NCBI GenBank assembly: GCA_900322135.1 | Contig: ONYP01000014.1 | Location: 1 to 35,712 of the forward strand | Direction of reading: 5' to 3' | From: an uncultured Prevotellaceae bacterium | GTDB lineage: Bacteria > Bacteroidota > Bacteroidia > Bacteroidales > Muribaculaceae | Length of the DNA: 35,712 nucleotides | Shown: positions 20,864 through 34,913 of the stretch, one piece after another | Layout of the letters: every line of letters starts with the position of its first letter | Position numbering within the stretch: position 1 is the first letter of the stretch | Notes under the pieces: generated by a model | The model's database searches: none | Told to the model about the DNA's origin: nothing | What the model saw: only the letters and a program-made list of their open reading frames with translations | Made by a program: the position numbers and the translations under genes

Positions 20864-21244
20864 TTATTGTTGAGGCTGGCTGCCGGGCTGCTGGGCCCCT
20901 GCATTGTCGCGGGCACGCGCCAGCAGTTCAAAGGTGTCCACATAAATCTCGGTGGTGAAACGCTTCACCTGATTGCGGTCCTCCCACGCACGGGTGCGCA
21001 AGCGTCCTTCAAGGTAAAGTTGTGTGCCTTTGCGGATGTAGCGCTCGGCAATCTCGGCATTCTTGCCCCACATCACGATGTTGTGCCACTCGGTGCGCTC
21101 GGGCACCTCCACACCGTTAGCATTGGTATAAGCACGATCGGTAGTAGCAAGCGTAAACGATGCAACGGGCTGATTCTGTGCCACATAACGCACATCTGGA
21201 TCTCGGCCGACACGGCCCAGCAAAATGACTTTATTGACTGACAT
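20864..21244 (-). CDS. ssb: Single-stranded DNA-binding protein without acidic tip
   Basis: OB-fold protein that coats single-stranded DNA. MSVNKVILLGRVGRDPDVRY, then TERTEWHN-like PERTEWHNIVMWGKNAEIAE, and YLEGRLRTRAWEDRN are classic SSB features (residues 1-110). The 126-residue protein ends GAQQPGSQPQQ. The short acidic tip (usually ending DDLPF) that recruits repair and replication partners is absent. I see no frameshift in the bases after the stop that would restore it. It may be a second SSB in this genome, or a lineage form with a shortened tail. Convergent with manC; 54 nt after the ArgC-like gene. Confidence 0.93.
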   Translation of the reverse strand: MSVNKVILLGRVGRDPDVRYVAQNQPVASFTLATTDRAYTNANGVEVPERTEWHNIVMWGKNAEIAERYIRKGTQLYLEGRLRTRAWEDRNQVKRFTTEIYVDTFELLARARDNAGAQQPGSQPQQ

Positions 21245-21298: not shown

Positions 21299-22267
21299 TT
21301 AACAACCGGTGCCCTTGAGGGTGAGCCCCACCCGCTCATGCAAGCCGTACATCAGGTTCATCACATGAACCGCCATGCCGGCGCTGCCCTTGAGCAAGAC
21401 ATCCATCATGGCATGCACGGTGAGCGTTCCGGCGGCCCCGTCCTTATCGAGCATGATAAGGCACTTGTTGGTATTCTCCACATCAGCAGCCACAATGGGA
21501 CGGTCCACAAGGAACACAAAGTTATGGTCCCCATAATATTGCTCATAGAGCTGCCTGACCATATCGCCGTCAATGCCACACTTGAAACGAGCGGTCGCCT
21601 CAATCGTGCGGCGTTCTCCCTGTTGCGAAATGGTCATCTCGACAGGTTGCTTGAAGTTAGGCTGGCACTGGACAAGCGCAAGCTGCACCTCCTGATTTTG
21701 TTCGTTGAGCCATTGTTCTCGTGTCAAGCCGTCGGGCGTGGTGCCCGACTCATTATCCTGTGCCACACAAGCACATTCTCCTAGCTCCACATGCAGCGAT
21801 ACAGGGCTGTTGAGCAACAGGTTGCGTGCCATCGGCATCAGCGCGAGCAACGAGGCTGCCGCGGCACTGCCTGGCACTGTCACGAGCTCAGCATCGTGCA
21901 CGAGCACACGGCGCTGCATCTCACTCAAGCCGTAAACCCACTGATTCCCGGGCCCATGGTCCAGATTGTGGCCACCGCTCATGTCCACGACACGGGTCGT
22001 GCCCGACACCCCAATGCTACGCAGGCTGTCTTCCACGAGGCGGCGTTCATGGGTTACAAACACCACATCCACCTCATCCAGCGGGCCAACGGGGCTGACC
22101 ACGAGGTCACTCTCACCCACAATGCCCCGCACGAGATGGTCAAGGCGCTCACCAGCGTGCACACGCGAGGCTACCCATTTCAACACCACATCAGGGTGAT
22201 TGATGAGTACCCTCACTAGTTCGTATCCCCGCAAGTTATCGCACCCTATGATGCCGACATCAATCAT
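21299..22267 (-). CDS. argC: ArgC homologue lacking catalytic residues (pseudo-enzyme)
   Basis: Homologous along its length to N-acetyl-gamma-glutamyl-phosphate reductase (322 residues, ATG at 22267), but three functional sites are changed. The catalytic Cys of the NPGC motif is Ser134 in VPGSAAAASL (codon AGT, 21866-21868). The NADP-binding GxGxxG loop after GIIG reads CDNLRGYEL. The His motif (HxHxPE) is replaced by NEQNQE. The C-terminal fold region is well kept: NTNKCLIMLDKDG, DVLLKGSAGMAVHVMNLMYG. The gene is intact, with no stop or frameshift, which argues for retained function other than catalysis. It lies 18 nt after argR; no argB, argD or argG is adjacent. Confidence 0.85.
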   Translation of the reverse strand: MIDVGIIGCDNLRGYELVRVLINHPDVVLKWVASRVHAGERLDHLVRGIVGESDLVVSPVGPLDEVDVVFVTHERRLVEDSLRSIGVSGTTRVVDMSGGHNLDHGPGNQWVYGLSEMQRRVLVHDAELVTVPGSAAAASLLALMPMARNLLLNSPVSLHVELGECACVAQDNESGTTPDGLTREQWLNEQNQEVQLALVQCQPNFKQPVEMTISQQGERRTIEATARFKCGIDGDMVRQLYEQYYGDHNFVFLVDRPIVAADVENTNKCLIMLDKDGAAGTLTVHAMMDVLLKGSAGMAVHVMNLMYGLHERVGLTLKGTGC

Positions 22268-22285
22268 CAGCAATCAGTTAATGGA

Positions 22286-22831
22286 TCAACCCAGGCTATG
22301 GGGGGAATTCTTGGGCATGAACTGCTCAAACACTTCCCTAGCCTTCTCTTGGGTAACACCCTCGGCGAGAATTGCTACCACTGTATCAGCACCGGCAATG
22401 GTACCCAGGATCTCGGGGGGACGGCTCATGTCGATGTCATAAGCCAGACCGGGAGCATAACCGTTGCGCGTCTTAATCACGGCAAGGTTGCCCGAGAAGT
22501 TAACCGATACCAGACCCACTTGCTTGGCAGCATGGGCATCCGTCTGACGCATACTCAGCAGCCTGTCCTGCAACTGGTTGCTGTCAGGAATGATATACAT
22601 GTAGGTATTACGGTCGGTAGCCACCTTGGAAATCTTCAAGGCCTTCAAGTCACGCGACAATGTGGCTTGAGTCACATTGATGTTGTGCTCACGCAACATG
22701 TCGGCCAGCTCACTCTGGCTTCCGATGCAATTTGTCTTGATCAAATCAGTGATCAACTGTAGACGGTCACGTTTTCTTTTCACGAGTACTTTCTTTTTTC
22801 TTGGTTTTTTTGTTAATGTTGTCGTTTCCAT
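22286..22831 (-). CDS. argR: Arginine repressor ArgR
   Basis: Arginine-responsive regulator, normally a hexamer. The winged-helix N-domain includes DRLQLITDLIKTNCIGSQSE then VTQATLSRDLKALKISK (about 22-70). The C-terminal arginine-binding domain carries GNLAVIKTRNGYAPGLAYDID and EILGTIAGADTVVAIL. The promoter at 22866-22873 puts transcription start near 22859, so the ATG at 22831 (METTTLTKKPRKKK) is chosen over the ATG at 22864. Even so the protein (181 residues) has a strongly basic N-terminal extension of ~20 residues not usual for the ~150-residue family. Likely co-transcribed with the ArgC-like gene. Confidence 0.95.
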   Translation of the reverse strand: METTTLTKKPRKKKVLVKRKRDRLQLITDLIKTNCIGSQSELADMLREHNINVTQATLSRDLKALKISKVATDRNTYMYIIPDSNQLQDRLLSMRQTDAHAAKQVGLVSVNFSGNLAVIKTRNGYAPGLAYDIDMSRPPEILGTIAGADTVVAILAEGVTQEKAREVFEQFMPKNSPHSLG

Positions 22832-22865: not shown

Positions 22866-22873
22866 CAAAGGTA
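22866..22873 (-). promoter_or_regulatory. Promoter of argR
   Basis: TACCTTTG on the minus strand matches TAnnTTTG; a TTG about 21 nt upstream (22895-22897) approximates the -33 box. Predicted start about 22859. Confidence 0.6.
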
Positions 22874-23034
22874 AATACTTTTTTGCTAACTCTACAACAT
22901 ATTTATTGATTTTTTTGCTTGATAGGATACTTTTTATGAAATTTAATTAATTATCCACCAAATCCAGTCATGCCGAACAATATATATACATCTTGTAAAA
23001 CGGCTGATGAGCCTGCCGATTGCTCAATTCATCA

Positions 23035-24817: not shown

Positions 24818-26812
24818 TTACCACTCACCAGTAAGAACGCGTCCAATCAGGGCACTCACATCGTTGATGTCGATGGTGTTATCACCGCCCTCAACATTGC
24901 AGTCGGCGGCAAGCGCGTTATACTCGACATCTTTACCCAGAACAACATCAATCAACAAGGCAACATCGTTGATGTCGATGAAGGTGTCATTATTCACATC
25001 ACCACGCAGGTAGGTGGGAGGCGCAACATACTTCTCCCATTTAACGGGTTCGAACACCAAATTGTCGCCTGACTTCCAAATGAGACCATAGATGTTGTAA
25101 CTGCCCATGGCGGGCTGATTTCCTGTTCCGGTCAACGAAATGTTTGTGCCGTCGGGCAACGGAATTGAGCGTATCGGCATGAAACTCTTGCTCACATTCT
25201 CAACCCAAACATAGGCGTTGAGCATGCTCTCTTCGGGGAAACTGGTGAGTTTTTGGGGAGCAGCCAGTTCGGCATTGGTCTCACCGCTTGCGCTGAGGTC
25301 TGAAGCATCGATGAACTTAACCCAACCGTTATTGCTGGTCTTGGTGGCATTCCAGCCCTGGCTCAGCACCTGACCGTTTTCAAAGACGGCGAGGCTGTCG
25401 ACAATCTGGCCATAGCCAGTCTCGTCGCGCAGGTACACGCTACCCTTCCAGCAGATGGTTACAACAGCGTCACCGTCAAAGGTAAAGGCCTCGTCATCGG
25501 CCAGAGCGTTTGCCTGTGCGAGGGTGGTGATGCCGTCCTCCTGGGGAACATACTCTACATAGAGTACAGCGGGCTGCTGGCTGCTGGTATAGCAAGCAAA
25601 ACGGGGGCTACTAGCATTGTACTGAAGAATGCGAGCGTTATCGGACTTGTTGCTCAGCACAATACCGTCGTCGGTTGCATTAGCAATCCATTGTGCACCG
25701 GTAGCACCAGTGGCGCCGTCACCGGTGACAGCGTCCAACGAATTACCTGTATTCCAGAGAATATAACTTCCTGAGCCATTGATCTCAAAGGTCCAAGTGT
25801 CATTGCCGAGGACATCCATACTACCCTCGCCCAAAGTCAACTCTACCACATCAGTACCACCGATGTATGCAACATCTTCAACAATGGGGATCTCGATATG
25901 GCTACCATAATGGGTAGAGCCACCAGTAATCTCACCCATGGCAAGTTTTCTTTCCTCATTGACGAGGATGTACTTCTTGCCTACTTCCAGTTCGTCAGCG
26001 CTGTTTACCTTCACATAAGGCTTGGTTAAGACAACAGGCTCAACCTTGGTGTAGGTGGCACTAACTACTTCACTCTCGACTTCGCCCTTGACAGCCTTGG
26101 CGTGAACCGTGGTGGTCTCGGTGATAGTGAGGGCTCCAGTGTATTCAGTAAATTCGCCATCATTGAGGGCGTACATGAGGTCAGCGCCTTCCTCATTGTT
26201 GGTGATGGTTACGCTGAGGCTGTTTTCAAACTCCTGAGATTCAGGCAGCGTGGGTGCAGCAACAGTCACGGGAGGCGTAACATTAGCATCCTGAACATAC
26301 AGGACAGCGGGCTTCTGGCTGCTGGTGTAGCAAGCAAAACGGGGGCTACCAGCATTGTACTGAAGAATGCGGGAATTGTCCACCTTGTTTTTCAGTATAA
26401 CGCCATCATCAGTCAAAGTAGGTAACCACGCAGAATTGTTGGAAGCGGGCAAGTTGATACCAGTCAACGAATTGCCTGAAGTCCAACCCATATAATAGCC
26501 GTCTTCGCCCATGCGGAAGTTCCATGTGGGATTGCCGGTTGCGTCCTGACCAGGAGCAGCCGCAATCAGTTCAACCACATCAGTTCCTTCAATATCGATA
26601 ACATCACCGATAGAGATTTCGACAGAAGTGCCGTAGTTGGTGGAACCGGCAGTGTAGAGCGCGCCCATGGCAACGCTGTTCTCCTCATTAACGAGGATGT
26701 ACTTCTTGCCTTCTTCCAGTTGGTCGATGCTGGCCACCTTCACATAGGTGTTGGCAGCCCATGCCGACATAGTCAGCAGAACAAGCGAGAATAAAGATAA
26801 AAATTTCTTCAT
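24818..26812 (-). CDS. Secreted two-repeat protein with C-terminal dockerin
   Basis: Exported protein of 664 residues. Signal peptide MKKFLSLFSLVLLTMSAWA (1-19). Two copies of a ~155-residue unit follow (about 21-175 and 264-421), each with KYILVNEE, GTDVVEL and ILQYNA-SPRFACYTSS. Between them (about 186-254) lies a chitobiase-type C-terminal-like domain. A region resembling an OB-fold module (about 428-590, with VTICWKGSVYLRDETG) leads to a type I dockerin-like pair of calcium loops (601-664, GDVNNDTFIDINDVALLID and NTIDINDVSALIG). No enzyme motif was recognised; a binding or structural surface protein is likely. The dockerin implies a cohesin-like partner, not seen here. Confidence 0.85.
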   Translation of the reverse strand: MKKFLSLFSLVLLTMSAWAANTYVKVASIDQLEEGKKYILVNEENSVAMGALYTAGSTNYGTSVEISIGDVIDIEGTDVVELIAAAPGQDATGNPTWNFRMGEDGYYMGWTSGNSLTGINLPASNNSAWLPTLTDDGVILKNKVDNSRILQYNAGSPRFACYTSSQKPAVLYVQDANVTPPVTVAAPTLPESQEFENSLSVTITNNEEGADLMYALNDGEFTEYTGALTITETTTVHAKAVKGEVESEVVSATYTKVEPVVLTKPYVKVNSADELEVGKKYILVNEERKLAMGEITGGSTHYGSHIEIPIVEDVAYIGGTDVVELTLGEGSMDVLGNDTWTFEINGSGSYILWNTGNSLDAVTGDGATGATGAQWIANATDDGIVLSNKSDNARILQYNASSPRFACYTSSQQPAVLYVEYVPQEDGITTLAQANALADDEAFTFDGDAVVTICWKGSVYLRDETGYGQIVDSLAVFENGQVLSQGWNATKTSNNGWVKFIDASDLSASGETNAELAAPQKLTSFPEESMLNAYVWVENVSKSFMPIRSIPLPDGTNISLTGTGNQPAMGSYNIYGLIWKSGDNLVFEPVKWEKYVAPPTYLRGDVNNDTFIDINDVALLIDVVLGKDVEYNALAADCNVEGGDNTIDINDVSALIGRVLTGEW

Positions 26813-27092: not shown

Positions 27093-29096
27093 TCAATGGC
27101 CGTTCAATACCCAATCAATCAGAGTCGCCACATCATTGATATCCACGGTTTCGTCATCAGTGACATCGGCGGCAAGCGCGTTATACACGACATCTTTACC
27201 CAGTACAACATCAATCAATAAGGCAACATCGTTGATGTCAATCAAGCGGTCACCGTTCATGTCGCCGAAGATGAACGCCGGGACGCCGGTCAAGTAGCCT
27301 GGCCGCGCGGGGCCGCCGTCGATGCGTGCATATTCAAGTTCCACATAATTACCATCATAGTGCGTTCCCATGCCACCCACGAGATTACCGCATCCGGTGA
27401 ACATCCTGCCGGCGATGGTAACGGCATCAGTATTCCATCCGTCACCGGCATAGATGGTTGTCAAGCCACTGCAGTAGGTGAACATTTCGTTCATGTCGGT
27501 AACATTGGCGGTGTTGAAACTGCTCAGGTCGAGGGTAGTCAGTTCCCTGTCGCCCCAGAACATTTCGGTCATATTGGTGACACTATCGGTGTTGAAACTG
27601 GTCAAATCGATGCTCTCCAGGCTGTAGCACCCACTGAACATGCGGTCCATATCTTTTACCCTGGCGGTATTGAAACAACGCAGGTCGAGGTTGACGGCAC
27701 CGCTGTTGAAGAACATGCGCCTCATGTATGTCACATTCTCGGTGTTGAAATGATTGCCGAAGTTGATGGTTTTGGCGCTGCACAACCTGAACATTTCGCC
27801 CATAGAGGTGACCTTCTCGGTGTTGAAGGTGCTTACATCCAGGCTGTCGAGGCTCTGGGTGCCGTAGAACATGCCGTACATATTAGTCACATTCTCGGTG
27901 TTGAAATTGCTCAGGTCGAGATTAGTCACATCATCGCAATTATAGAACATACCGGACATGTTGGTCACCTTGTCGGTGTTGAAGTTGCTCACATCGAGTG
28001 CCTTGACAGAGTAGCAGTCGTAAAACATCCCTGACATGGTTGTCACATTACGGGTGTCGAAGTTGCTCACATCGATGGTCTGCAAACGCCTGCAGTCATA
28101 GAACATGCTACCCATTGATGTGACATTGGAAGTGTTGAAGTGGCTCACATCAAGGTCTGTCAACTTATAACAGCCCTCAAACAGGGCGGTCATGCTGGTC
28201 ACATTCTCGGTGTTAAAAGTGCTCACATCGAGCGTTTCCAACGAGTGGCAGTAGCGGAACATGCAATACATTTCGGTCACGGCGGACGTGTTGAAGTTGC
28301 TACCCAGGTTAAGGTTCACCAACTTATCGCAACTGCCGAACATGTAATCCATATTGGTCACGCTGTCGGTGTTGAAGTTGCTCACATCAAGCGTCTTCAG
28401 GCTTTTGCACATGTAGAACAAGTCGCGCATGTTTTTCACCCTGGCGGTGTTGAAGTTGCTCACATCAAGGGCTTCCAGGCTATCGCAACTAGAGAACATG
28501 CCCGACATATAGGTCACTTTCTCGGTATTGAAACTGCTCACATCAAGGCTCCTTAATTTACGGCACATGTGGAACATGTCACCCATACCCGTCACATTCT
28601 CGGTGTTGAAATTGCTCAAGTCAAGGCTTGTCAGGTTCTCGCAGTTGCTAAACATGTCACTCATGACCGTCACATTGTGGGTGTCGAAACCGCTCACATC
28701 AAGGCTTGTTGCCCCACATCCCTTGAACATCTCTGTCATGCGTTTGACCTCGGATGTGTTAAGGTATTCCTTCATGCCCGTAATGGTCTTGAGGTTGGTC
28801 AGATAATAAAACCATCGCGCCGTGGATATGGGACGATAGTCGGCAAATGACGGGTCAAACACCACATGGGTGATGTCCTTATTGTAACCATCATTATACC
28901 AGCCCGGGCAATAGTAATACAGGTTCTTGGGCAGGTCATAGGTGAAGCCCGTGCGGGAACTCCTCAGGTCATCATAGTAGAAGGTCACCGTCGAGTCTTC
29001 GGGAGTGTACTCCATGTAGCCCTCCAGGGCCATCGCACTGACGGGGCACAGCAGACACGCCATCAGAGCAAAAAGTGAAAGTAAGGTTTTTCTCAT
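27093..29096 (-). CDS. BspA-like (DUF285) repeat surface protein with dockerin
   Basis: Exported protein of 667 residues. Signal peptide MRKTLLSLFALMACLLCPVS then AMA (1-23). About 17 tandem 26-residue units (about 110-551) of the form SxFNTxxVTxMxxMFxxCxxLxxLDV form a DUF285/BspA-type solenoid. The tail YARIDGGPARPGYLTG is a typical end cap. Residues 608-667 are a dockerin-like pair (GDMNGDRLIDINDVALLID and ETVDINDVATLID). Such solenoids serve in adhesion to host or polysaccharide in related bacteria; the ligand here is unknown. Joined to a dockerin, it may be an assembled adhesin. Confidence 0.88.
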   Translation of the reverse strand: MRKTLLSLFALMACLLCPVSAMALEGYMEYTPEDSTVTFYYDDLRSSRTGFTYDLPKNLYYYCPGWYNDGYNKDITHVVFDPSFADYRPISTARWFYYLTNLKTITGMKEYLNTSEVKRMTEMFKGCGATSLDVSGFDTHNVTVMSDMFSNCENLTSLDLSNFNTENVTGMGDMFHMCRKLRSLDVSSFNTEKVTYMSGMFSSCDSLEALDVSNFNTARVKNMRDLFYMCKSLKTLDVSNFNTDSVTNMDYMFGSCDKLVNLNLGSNFNTSAVTEMYCMFRYCHSLETLDVSTFNTENVTSMTALFEGCYKLTDLDVSHFNTSNVTSMGSMFYDCRRLQTIDVSNFDTRNVTTMSGMFYDCYSVKALDVSNFNTDKVTNMSGMFYNCDDVTNLDLSNFNTENVTNMYGMFYGTQSLDSLDVSTFNTEKVTSMGEMFRLCSAKTINFGNHFNTENVTYMRRMFFNSGAVNLDLRCFNTARVKDMDRMFSGCYSLESIDLTSFNTDSVTNMTEMFWGDRELTTLDLSSFNTANVTDMNEMFTYCSGLTTIYAGDGWNTDAVTIAGRMFTGCGNLVGGMGTHYDGNYVELEYARIDGGPARPGYLTGVPAFIFGDMNGDRLIDINDVALLIDVVLGKDVVYNALAADVTDDETVDINDVATLIDWVLNGH
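27444..28769 (-). repeat. 17 tandem 78-bp coding repeats (DUF285 units)
   Basis: Each 78-bp unit encodes one 26-residue FNT-VT-M-MF-LDV unit of the BspA-like protein. Units are diverged at the DNA level yet keep the FNTENVT-coding block, so copy number could change by recombination. Confidence 0.85.
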
Positions 29097-34142: not shown

Positions 34143-34913
34143 TCACCGTGATTGGGACACCCGCACCGCGCGGATAACATGGCCATAGTAGCGGCTGAAG
34201 TCTTCCGAGTCCCAGTACTGCGAATCAAAGTAGAGGCAGTAAGCACGGTCTGGGAGATATGAGTAAAGCGAGCGCGACCAATAGATGCCGTAAGTTCCCG
34301 CGTATTCAAGCGAACTGCCGTCGCGGTATCCTGCAGCAGGCAAGAACATGGTGTTTCCGTTGGGCCCTGTAACCAAATGGCCATTCACGCCGTTACTTTG
34401 TGTCCACTGCCAGGTACAAGAATTAACGAGTTCGGCGACCTGCTCCACCGACGGCAAGCACCACGATGTGCCCATGTTCACGCGGGCTGCATCGTCCTCA
34501 GGCTCCATCTCCGTCTTGTTGTCAACAGGGCCAAAGTCGCTGCTTGTGTTGTACTTTGAAATATACCGATATCCATCCTCGTCATAGTACCACCACTTGT
34601 AGTTCTCATAGGTATACTCATCCTTGGGAACCGTTTCACTCCAGGCGAAGTAGTCACCATATTCCTCCGGGCTACTAGCCCCCAAATTACATGTTGCCCA
34701 CAGTGTGCCACTGGGCAAGCCCAGATCCACATACTCGTAATTGCCAGCATCAGGCCAAGAGCCCTTTAACAGATAATCTATTAAGCAGGTCACATCCGAT
34801 ATATCAACTTGACCATCAAAATTCACATCACCACGGAGGTACTCCTGTGCATTGGAGGCCAGAGAGGACAACATCAACAATGATAAAACAAAAAATGAGT
34901 TGAACTTCTTCAT
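34143..34913 (-). CDS. FISUMP-domain secreted protein with N-terminal half-dockerin
   Basis: Exported protein of 256 residues. Signal peptide about 1-22 (ending SLASNA). Residues 24-53 carry one calcium-loop dockerin repeat (YLRGDVNFDGQVDISDVTCL then IDYLLKG) rather than the usual pair. Residues ~58-254 are a Fibrobacter-major-paralogous (FISUMP) domain: YVDLGLPSGTLWATCNLGAS, EYGDYFAWSET, SWCLPSVEQVAELVN, NTMFLPAAGYRDG, and a terminal RAVR. The domain is frequent in secreted Bacteroidales proteins and has no proven function. Base composition is intermediate, unlike the AT-rich genes to its left. Confidence 0.87.
   Translation of the reverse strand: MKKFNSFFVLSLLMLSSLASNAQEYLRGDVNFDGQVDISDVTCLIDYLLKGSWPDAGNYEYVDLGLPSGTLWATCNLGASSPEEYGDYFAWSETVPKDEYTYENYKWWYYDEDGYRYISKYNTSSDFGPVDNKTEMEPEDDAARVNMGTSWCLPSVEQVAELVNSCTWQWTQSNGVNGHLVTGPNGNTMFLPAAGYRDGSSLEYAGTYGIYWSRSLYSYLPDRAYCLYFDSQYWDSEDFSRYYGHVIRAVRVSQSR

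Follow-up and report, generated by a model that had tools for sequence, protein, structure and literature searches.

Among proteins of the ArgC family, the nearest precedent that we found for a non-enzymatic role is yeast Arg5,6, which combines the activities of ArgB and ArgC and is reported also to bind DNA and regulate transcription (PMC10672435). We describe a different departure within the same family, encoded on a 35,712-nucleotide (nt) contig of an uncultured Prevotellaceae bacterium (ONYP01000014.1; Muribaculaceae in GTDB): a gene lying next to argR, designated argC*, whose product keeps the ArgC family signature but has lost the ArgC active site. The window, by which we mean this whole contig (C85), belongs to a draft genome of 3.09 Mb that is 82.6% complete. 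That ArgC* has both lost its active site and remained under purifying selection is a combined claim that we make with very high confidence. The explanation that we favour, and to which we give an even chance, is that ArgC* is a retained pseudoenzyme whose role is non-catalytic and, in the window's genus, most likely tied to ArgR.

Lost active site and retained constraint in ArgC*

The argC* gene occupies positions 21299..22267 on the minus strand and encodes 322 amino acids (aa) from a start at MIDVG, two in-frame TTG codons preceding that start and reaching 22273. Its product matches TIGR01850, the argC model, with 125.4 bits over model positions 2-341 of 345, without reaching the equivalog cut-off of 233.6; it exceeds the domain cut-offs of PF01118 (44 bits, cut-off 26) and PF22698 (34.1 bits, cut-off 27), and the closest solved structure by sequence is ArgC 1vkn (E 4.8e-17). 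These matches confirm the first-pass annotation of the window, which had recognized an ArgC homologue after argR. It had also described the alignment to ArgC as free of gaps over the active-site and C-terminal segments; gaps do occur, at the FSWR loop between the active site and the HxH motif, where S, W and R are deleted in 33/33 aligned ArgC* rows.

Those 33 rows, a mixture of genus genomes and named relatives, were compared residue by residue with 17 canonical Bacteroidales ArgC rows. The nucleophile Cys of NPGC is gone from all 33, its place being taken in the window by Ser134 (MIDVG numbering), as had been read from the sequence alone. The loop binding nicotinamide adenine dinucleotide phosphate (NADP), GxxGxxGYTxGE, had been called gone and is more exactly broken: the third Gly, the Tyr and the Thr are lost, while the first two Gly persist in 91-94% of the rows. 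Most or all rows have other residues, or a deletion, at both His of HxH and at the preceding Tyr, bearing out the earlier statement that the catalytic His motif had been replaced; this test refers to His217 and Tyr211 of a reference ArgC (from an 'M.' species), and His217 may be either His of the motif. Other positions are kept or newly fixed across the rows, here numbered as in P0001 (MIDVG count + 2): H26-P27-D28, W33, Y114-G115, E118, R121, V125-H126, P134, F207, Y246, D249-H250-N251-F252, T268-N269-K270-C271, K295-G296, G299, A301-V302-H303 and, towards the C terminus, M305-N306-L307 and G310-L311-H312-E313-R314.

The former Cys column is itself variable, reading N24 S5 D3 T2 G1 I1 K1 A1 among 38 close relatives including the window, so that Ser has not become established among them as a new nucleophile. 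Several catalytic elements have thus been lost with no conserved substitute, the pattern by which a pseudoenzyme is recognized, with the caution that a Cys shifted from the original position occurs in 13/33 rows. From these alignments ArgC* is a conserved, apparently non-catalytic ArgC-family protein.

Constraint on the gene is plain. Ratios of nonsynonymous to synonymous substitution rates (dN/dS) for the 12 closest pairs per group, by the NG86 method, lie at 0.07-0.21 in group A, which includes the window, and at 0.09-0.15 in group B; the YN00 method gives 0.05-0.26 for 12 group A pairs, dS being saturated or not computable for several pairs. For argR, 14 of the same pairs give 0.01-0.07 in 13 and 0.19 in one: argC* is constrained, though less than argR. 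Its reading frame is open over 288-346 aa in 33/33 genus genomes that carry it, the one stop flagged in 3/33 genes lying in each case where the match begins or ends. A dN/dS near 1, which the first-pass annotation had named as the sign of a decaying gene, was returned by neither method, and its proposal of an intact gene selected for a non-catalytic role agrees with the purifying selection, the apparent loss of catalysis and the arrangement with argR described below.

The argR-argC*-ssb locus across the genus

Upstream of argC* in the window, across a spacing of 18 nt, lies argR (22286..22831, minus strand), an arginine-repressor family regulator with matches to PF01316 and PF02863; we take its start at METTLT, giving 22831, where the list of open reading frames has 22864. 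The next gene downstream is ssb (20864..21244, minus strand). We surveyed this locus in a genus set of 37 genomes, the window's own and 36 others. ArgC* is present in 33/37, with the Cys absent in 33/33, argR directly upstream in 33/33 and ssb downstream in 32/33, and in these argR-adjacent homologues the former Cys reads N12 P7 D5 S3 A3 G2 E1. The possibility raised at first that this copy alone had changed among relatives keeping NPGC at the locus is not what we find.

The two genes are tightly packed well beyond the window. Among 87 non-canonical loci, in which some genomes are counted twice, argR and argC* overlap by 4 or 8 nt in 44, are separated by 0-52 nt in 40 and by 117 nt in one; the remaining two, L134 (688) and L136 (157), are start-codon artefacts in which the frames overlap. 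In 12 canonical loci argR lies 1.9-2.3 kilobases (kb) before argC, with argG between them. By their spacing, argR and argC* form one putative operon with translational coupling in the window's genus.

Alignment of 38 group A argR promoters revealed a common dyad of two ARG-box-like elements, degraded in some of the promoters, upstream of a promoter of the Bacteroidetes type. The window holds a remnant of this predicted two-box operator at 22927..22959 (minus strand), well formed in many relatives and degraded in the window species, in its right half. Between it and argR stand a AATAAATATGTTGT block (22894..22907, minus strand), present in at least 80% of the 38 promoters, and a -7-like element, TACCTTTG (22866..22873, minus strand), whose TTA and CTTTGCA parts are likewise found in at least 80% and which is presumably a Bacteroidetes-type promoter; the -33 TTTG is degenerate in the window species. 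Scanning 14 genomes for the left half of the operator with at most 2 mismatches gave 11 sites, 11/11 of them upstream of argR, with no such site in G000, G034 or G009, the last of which also lacks an argR match. The predicted operator would then be private to argR-argC*, as far as a motif derived from argR promoters can tell.

At up to 3 mismatches, ARG boxes occur in 52/99 regions, compared with about 11.5 in single-base shuffles, the promoters counted being related to one another. A wider ArgR regulon was considered and set aside, 19 sites at 3 mismatches in the 14 genomes standing against 8 for a reversed-pattern control; among six such loci that we inspected, the sole site alike in three genomes sits just after a gene that looks by eye like one for a sigma factor. 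The ArgR pocket reads GADT (GTIAGADT) in the window and GDDT in relatives outside the family. We rejected this D-to-A change as a sign of a changed partner: family members whose arginine clusters are intact also have A there.

Canonical ArgC without ArgC* occurs in only two genus genomes, G004 and G030, and together with ArgC* in G021. The canonical argC of G004 and G030 clusters with argB, argF, argD and argG, and its partner in the tree is a genome of a different family (support 100/95); this branching outside their own family suggests that the canonical cluster was reacquired. Across the 37 genomes argG was found in G004, G021 and G030 only and argH in G004 and G021 only, every genome with either gene having the canonical arg cluster. 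Neither argG nor argH was found in the window's genome at its 82.6% completeness, and although ArgC* is the sole ArgC found there, the missing argG and argH leave little room for the earlier suggestion that a sole, Ser-bearing ArgC supports growth without arginine. We rejected the only other TIGR01850 match of that genome as a second canonical ArgC: it lies on contig C38, is cut by the contig end and has NPNCS, a motif by which we take it to be aspartate-semialdehyde dehydrogenase. With no true ArgC found in the window genome, the idea that ArgC* binds one is unsupported here. Profile search gave no ArgC match in G009 and G016 among the 37; the argR of G016 (L214) is followed by a gene that looks by eye like a nuclease gene, and no ArgC homologue was found there.

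A separate scan of named records, mostly gut and rumen metagenome-assembled genomes labelled Muribaculaceae, Prevotellaceae, Porphyromonadaceae or Bacteroidales, found the Cys absent in 54/80 loci, 48 of which adjoin argR. At the other 6/54 argR was not seen, and in two of these (L186, L212) argC lies at most 720 nt from a contig end. Three records labelled Clostridiales, Paenibacillus and Staphylococcus (L190, L193, L207) hold an ArgC of the Muribaculaceae kind, and their labels look wrong; L190 and L207 were also placed in the ArgC tree.

Arginine appears to be used rather than made in most of the genus. PF02274 (arginine deiminase) matches in 29/37 genomes, 20 of them strongly, and the window's genome has an ornithine transcarbamylase beside a gene named from its sequence as carbamate-kinase-like; together these suggest that arginine use, not synthesis, is the usual lifestyle. 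A strict link between ArgC* and the deiminase was discarded, PF02274 not being found in the ArgC* carriers G002, G021, G025, G031, G035 and G036. The window's genome also encodes an ArgB-like protein (G000, contig C38; L061, 1492-2262, plus strand), its gene flanked by asd and a prfB-like gene, neighbours that we named by eye. Relative to canonical rows, this protein is altered at its glycine-rich and NxNAD-like motifs, more completely in one subgroup; its identity is 85-94% across those group A genomes that gave a match and its dN/dS 0.03-0.11. Like ArgC*, it may be a former enzyme of the arginine pathway that has been retained, perhaps for another use. Here too a strict link to ArgC* was rejected, no ArgB match being found in the ArgC* carriers G008, G012, G013, G017, G026 and G028 (G012 is 96% complete).

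Elsewhere in the window, three proteins (24818-26812, 27093-29096 and 34143-34913) contain stretches of the RGD(V/M)N type that look dockerin-like by eye, and one of the three also has numerous short FNTENVT-like repeats.

Intact and altered native argC in the wider family

Beyond the genus, an ArgC homologue was found in 155/159 genomes of the family and in 116/116 of those with at least 90% completeness and at most 5% contamination, native and second copies pooled. From 80 family regions we took 82 ArgC rows, chosen among the matches listed and hence giving no rate of ArgC absence: 12 belong to a compact arg operon and 70 are of native type. The native genes were scored as intact or altered on three residues (the Cys, the second His and the Arg of FSWR), and argG was counted as adjacent within 500 base pairs (bp). 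Among the 70 fetched from the matches listed, native argC is intact in 30/30 cases beside argG and altered in 40/40 cases not beside it, a comparison whose Fisher test ignores relatedness. Of the altered genes, 34 are without the Cys and 6 keep it without the second His; these six, of the kind seen in Duncaniella muris (a species with a collection strain, by its record title), retain one His and the FSWR Arg.

An altered native gene and an intact second ArgC occur together in 11 genomes, the native copy lacking the Cys in seven (G063, G067, G068, G094, G118, G161, G172) and keeping it in four (G093, G146, G175, G187). The clearest independent case is G172, whose native argC reads NPGAFATA, falls within the intact clade of its own genus (100/96) and is accompanied by an intact second ArgC. 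The ArgC tree requires at least three changes between intact and altered, and its long branches could conceal further changes or group rows wrongly. Where fully visible, the compact operon has the order argG-C-D-F-B-E; its ArgC clade of 14 rows, which includes G021 and G004 (support 100/97), sits among other families. Such a second arg operon with intact ArgC was probably acquired, and it seems to have entered several genera within the family. The compact loci are L301, L302, L304, L306, L308, L310, L312, L314, L316, L318, L320 and L368.

Within 200 bp of argR lie 14/40 altered native genes, in six genera (g1, g26, g33, g49, g53, g54), and G057, of another family, also has an altered argC adjoining argR. 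The other altered genes are found near gltX or among other genes (neighbours except gltX named by eye). Some canonical loci have the order gltX, argR, argG, argC, and in that light the positions of the altered genes look like remnants of one ancestral cluster, from which argC and, in some genera, argR would have been retained.

Competing explanations and relation to known systems

How might a gene without its catalysis be kept so widely? We propose that in this family, Muribaculaceae by its record labels, native ArgC had a second, non-catalytic job, which would outlast catalysis once this was lost or handed to an acquired operon. In the window's genus, ArgR and ArgC* would make up a small self-regulated module: ArgC*, with a fold built for a glutamate-derived metabolite, would be a ligand-binding partner tuning ArgR in cells no longer making arginine. 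We regard this account, a second function that keeps the gene after loss of the cluster or gain of an operon and that becomes in the genus the second subunit of an ArgR module, as evenly balanced between being right and wrong. A role involving ArgR in the window's genus is plausible, given the tight, often overlapping genes and the shared, seemingly private operator. Several observations weigh against it. Altered native genes are without argR within 200 bp in 26/40 cases, by a search limited to the neighbourhood, and an ArgR partnership cannot therefore be the whole story. In G004 and G030 argR is followed directly by ssb without ArgC*, so ArgR can do without it; G016 has argR without a detected ArgC*, and G009 has neither. 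The operator scan, built as it was on argR promoters, would miss diverged targets, and control of the arginine deiminase (arcA) genes by ArgR through ARG boxes was rejected, with boxes at 6/17 promoters and about 4.6 in shuffles, the start codon used lying upstream of the likely start in 3/17. The Cys is retained in 6/40 altered native genes, and in group B the N of NPGC, which precedes the lost Cys by three residues, is often replaced by a Cys (13/33 rows). Finally, the rate of evolution of argC* exceeds that of argR and, in most cases, that of ssb.

The dispersal of altered genes, near gltX or other genes, would be expected if ArgC* were non-catalytic and had no tie to ArgR. It might then, for instance, serve another enzyme as a scaffold or a regulatory subunit, candidates being the ArgB-like protein and other enzymes that act on glutamyl phosphates, and its adjacency to argR would be a leftover of deletions. 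With 1.9-2.3 kb and argG between argR and argC in canonical loci, deletions alone could have joined the two, and the ArgB-like protein is likewise altered and conserved. The overlapping start and stop codons and the shared, conserved operator nevertheless suggest a coupling that is maintained, and the six ArgC* genomes without an ArgB match indicate that an ArgB-like partner is not apparently required; we consider this explanation unlikely, if a serious contender. That ArgC* is instead a neofunctionalized enzyme with a different chemistry would fit its fold core and its kept or new positions (H26, D28, W33, R121, H126, D249-H250-N251-F252, K295, H303), as well as the shifted Cys of group B. 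But the column of the former Cys has no common residue, the NADP loop is no longer whole, all 33 rows lack the FSWR loop, and group A, the window's own, does not have the shifted Cys, which together make new chemistry improbable. A functioning ArgC, whether in the Ser form or in the Cys-keeping forms of other genera, is very doubtful: the six genes of the Duncaniella muris kind have lost only the second His and could still work, but the window's Ser varies among relatives, and searches of its genome found neither argG nor argH. Slow decay after the loss of arginine biosynthesis would account for the lost catalysis and for the faster evolution of argC*, yet it is hardly credible beside the low dN/dS, the open frames throughout the genus and an ArgC homologue in nearly every family genome and all the better ones. 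The non-catalytic, ArgR-coupled pseudoenzyme thus remains the reading that we prefer for the window's genus.

These genomes amount to a natural experiment run repeatedly: an enzyme of core biosynthesis has been stripped of catalysis and yet retained. If our account is true, the textbook enzyme ArgC has an unnoticed non-catalytic job, and bacteria common in the gut and rumen would be controlling their use of arginine in a new way, through an ArgR system of two proteins. The altered argC genes could also lead annotators to infer arginine synthesis wrongly. We know of no ArgR with a second subunit of the ArgC* kind, and no ArgC pseudoenzyme is named among the titles listed by our literature searches.

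Compared with described ArgC proteins (TIGR01850; PDB 1vkn, 2cvo, 7nni), ArgC* belongs to the same family over nearly its full length, matches the dimerization-domain model PF22698 and keeps the T-N-K, K-G..G.A-V..M-N and G-L.E positions; it differs in having no Cys, HxH, Tyr, third NADP-loop Gly or FSWR loop, in scoring under the equivalog cut-off and in a genome where argG and argH were not found. Its neighbour is a member of the ArgR/AhrC repressors by its PF01316 and PF02863 domains, but the operator found precedes its own gene and ArgC*, and its pocket is GADT, not GDDT. Yeast Arg5,6 is described as an enzyme with a second job (PMC10672435), whereas ArgC* has lost the active site itself. 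In this it resembles metabolic pseudoenzymes generally: the catalytic residues are lost, and the fold family and the selection on it are kept.
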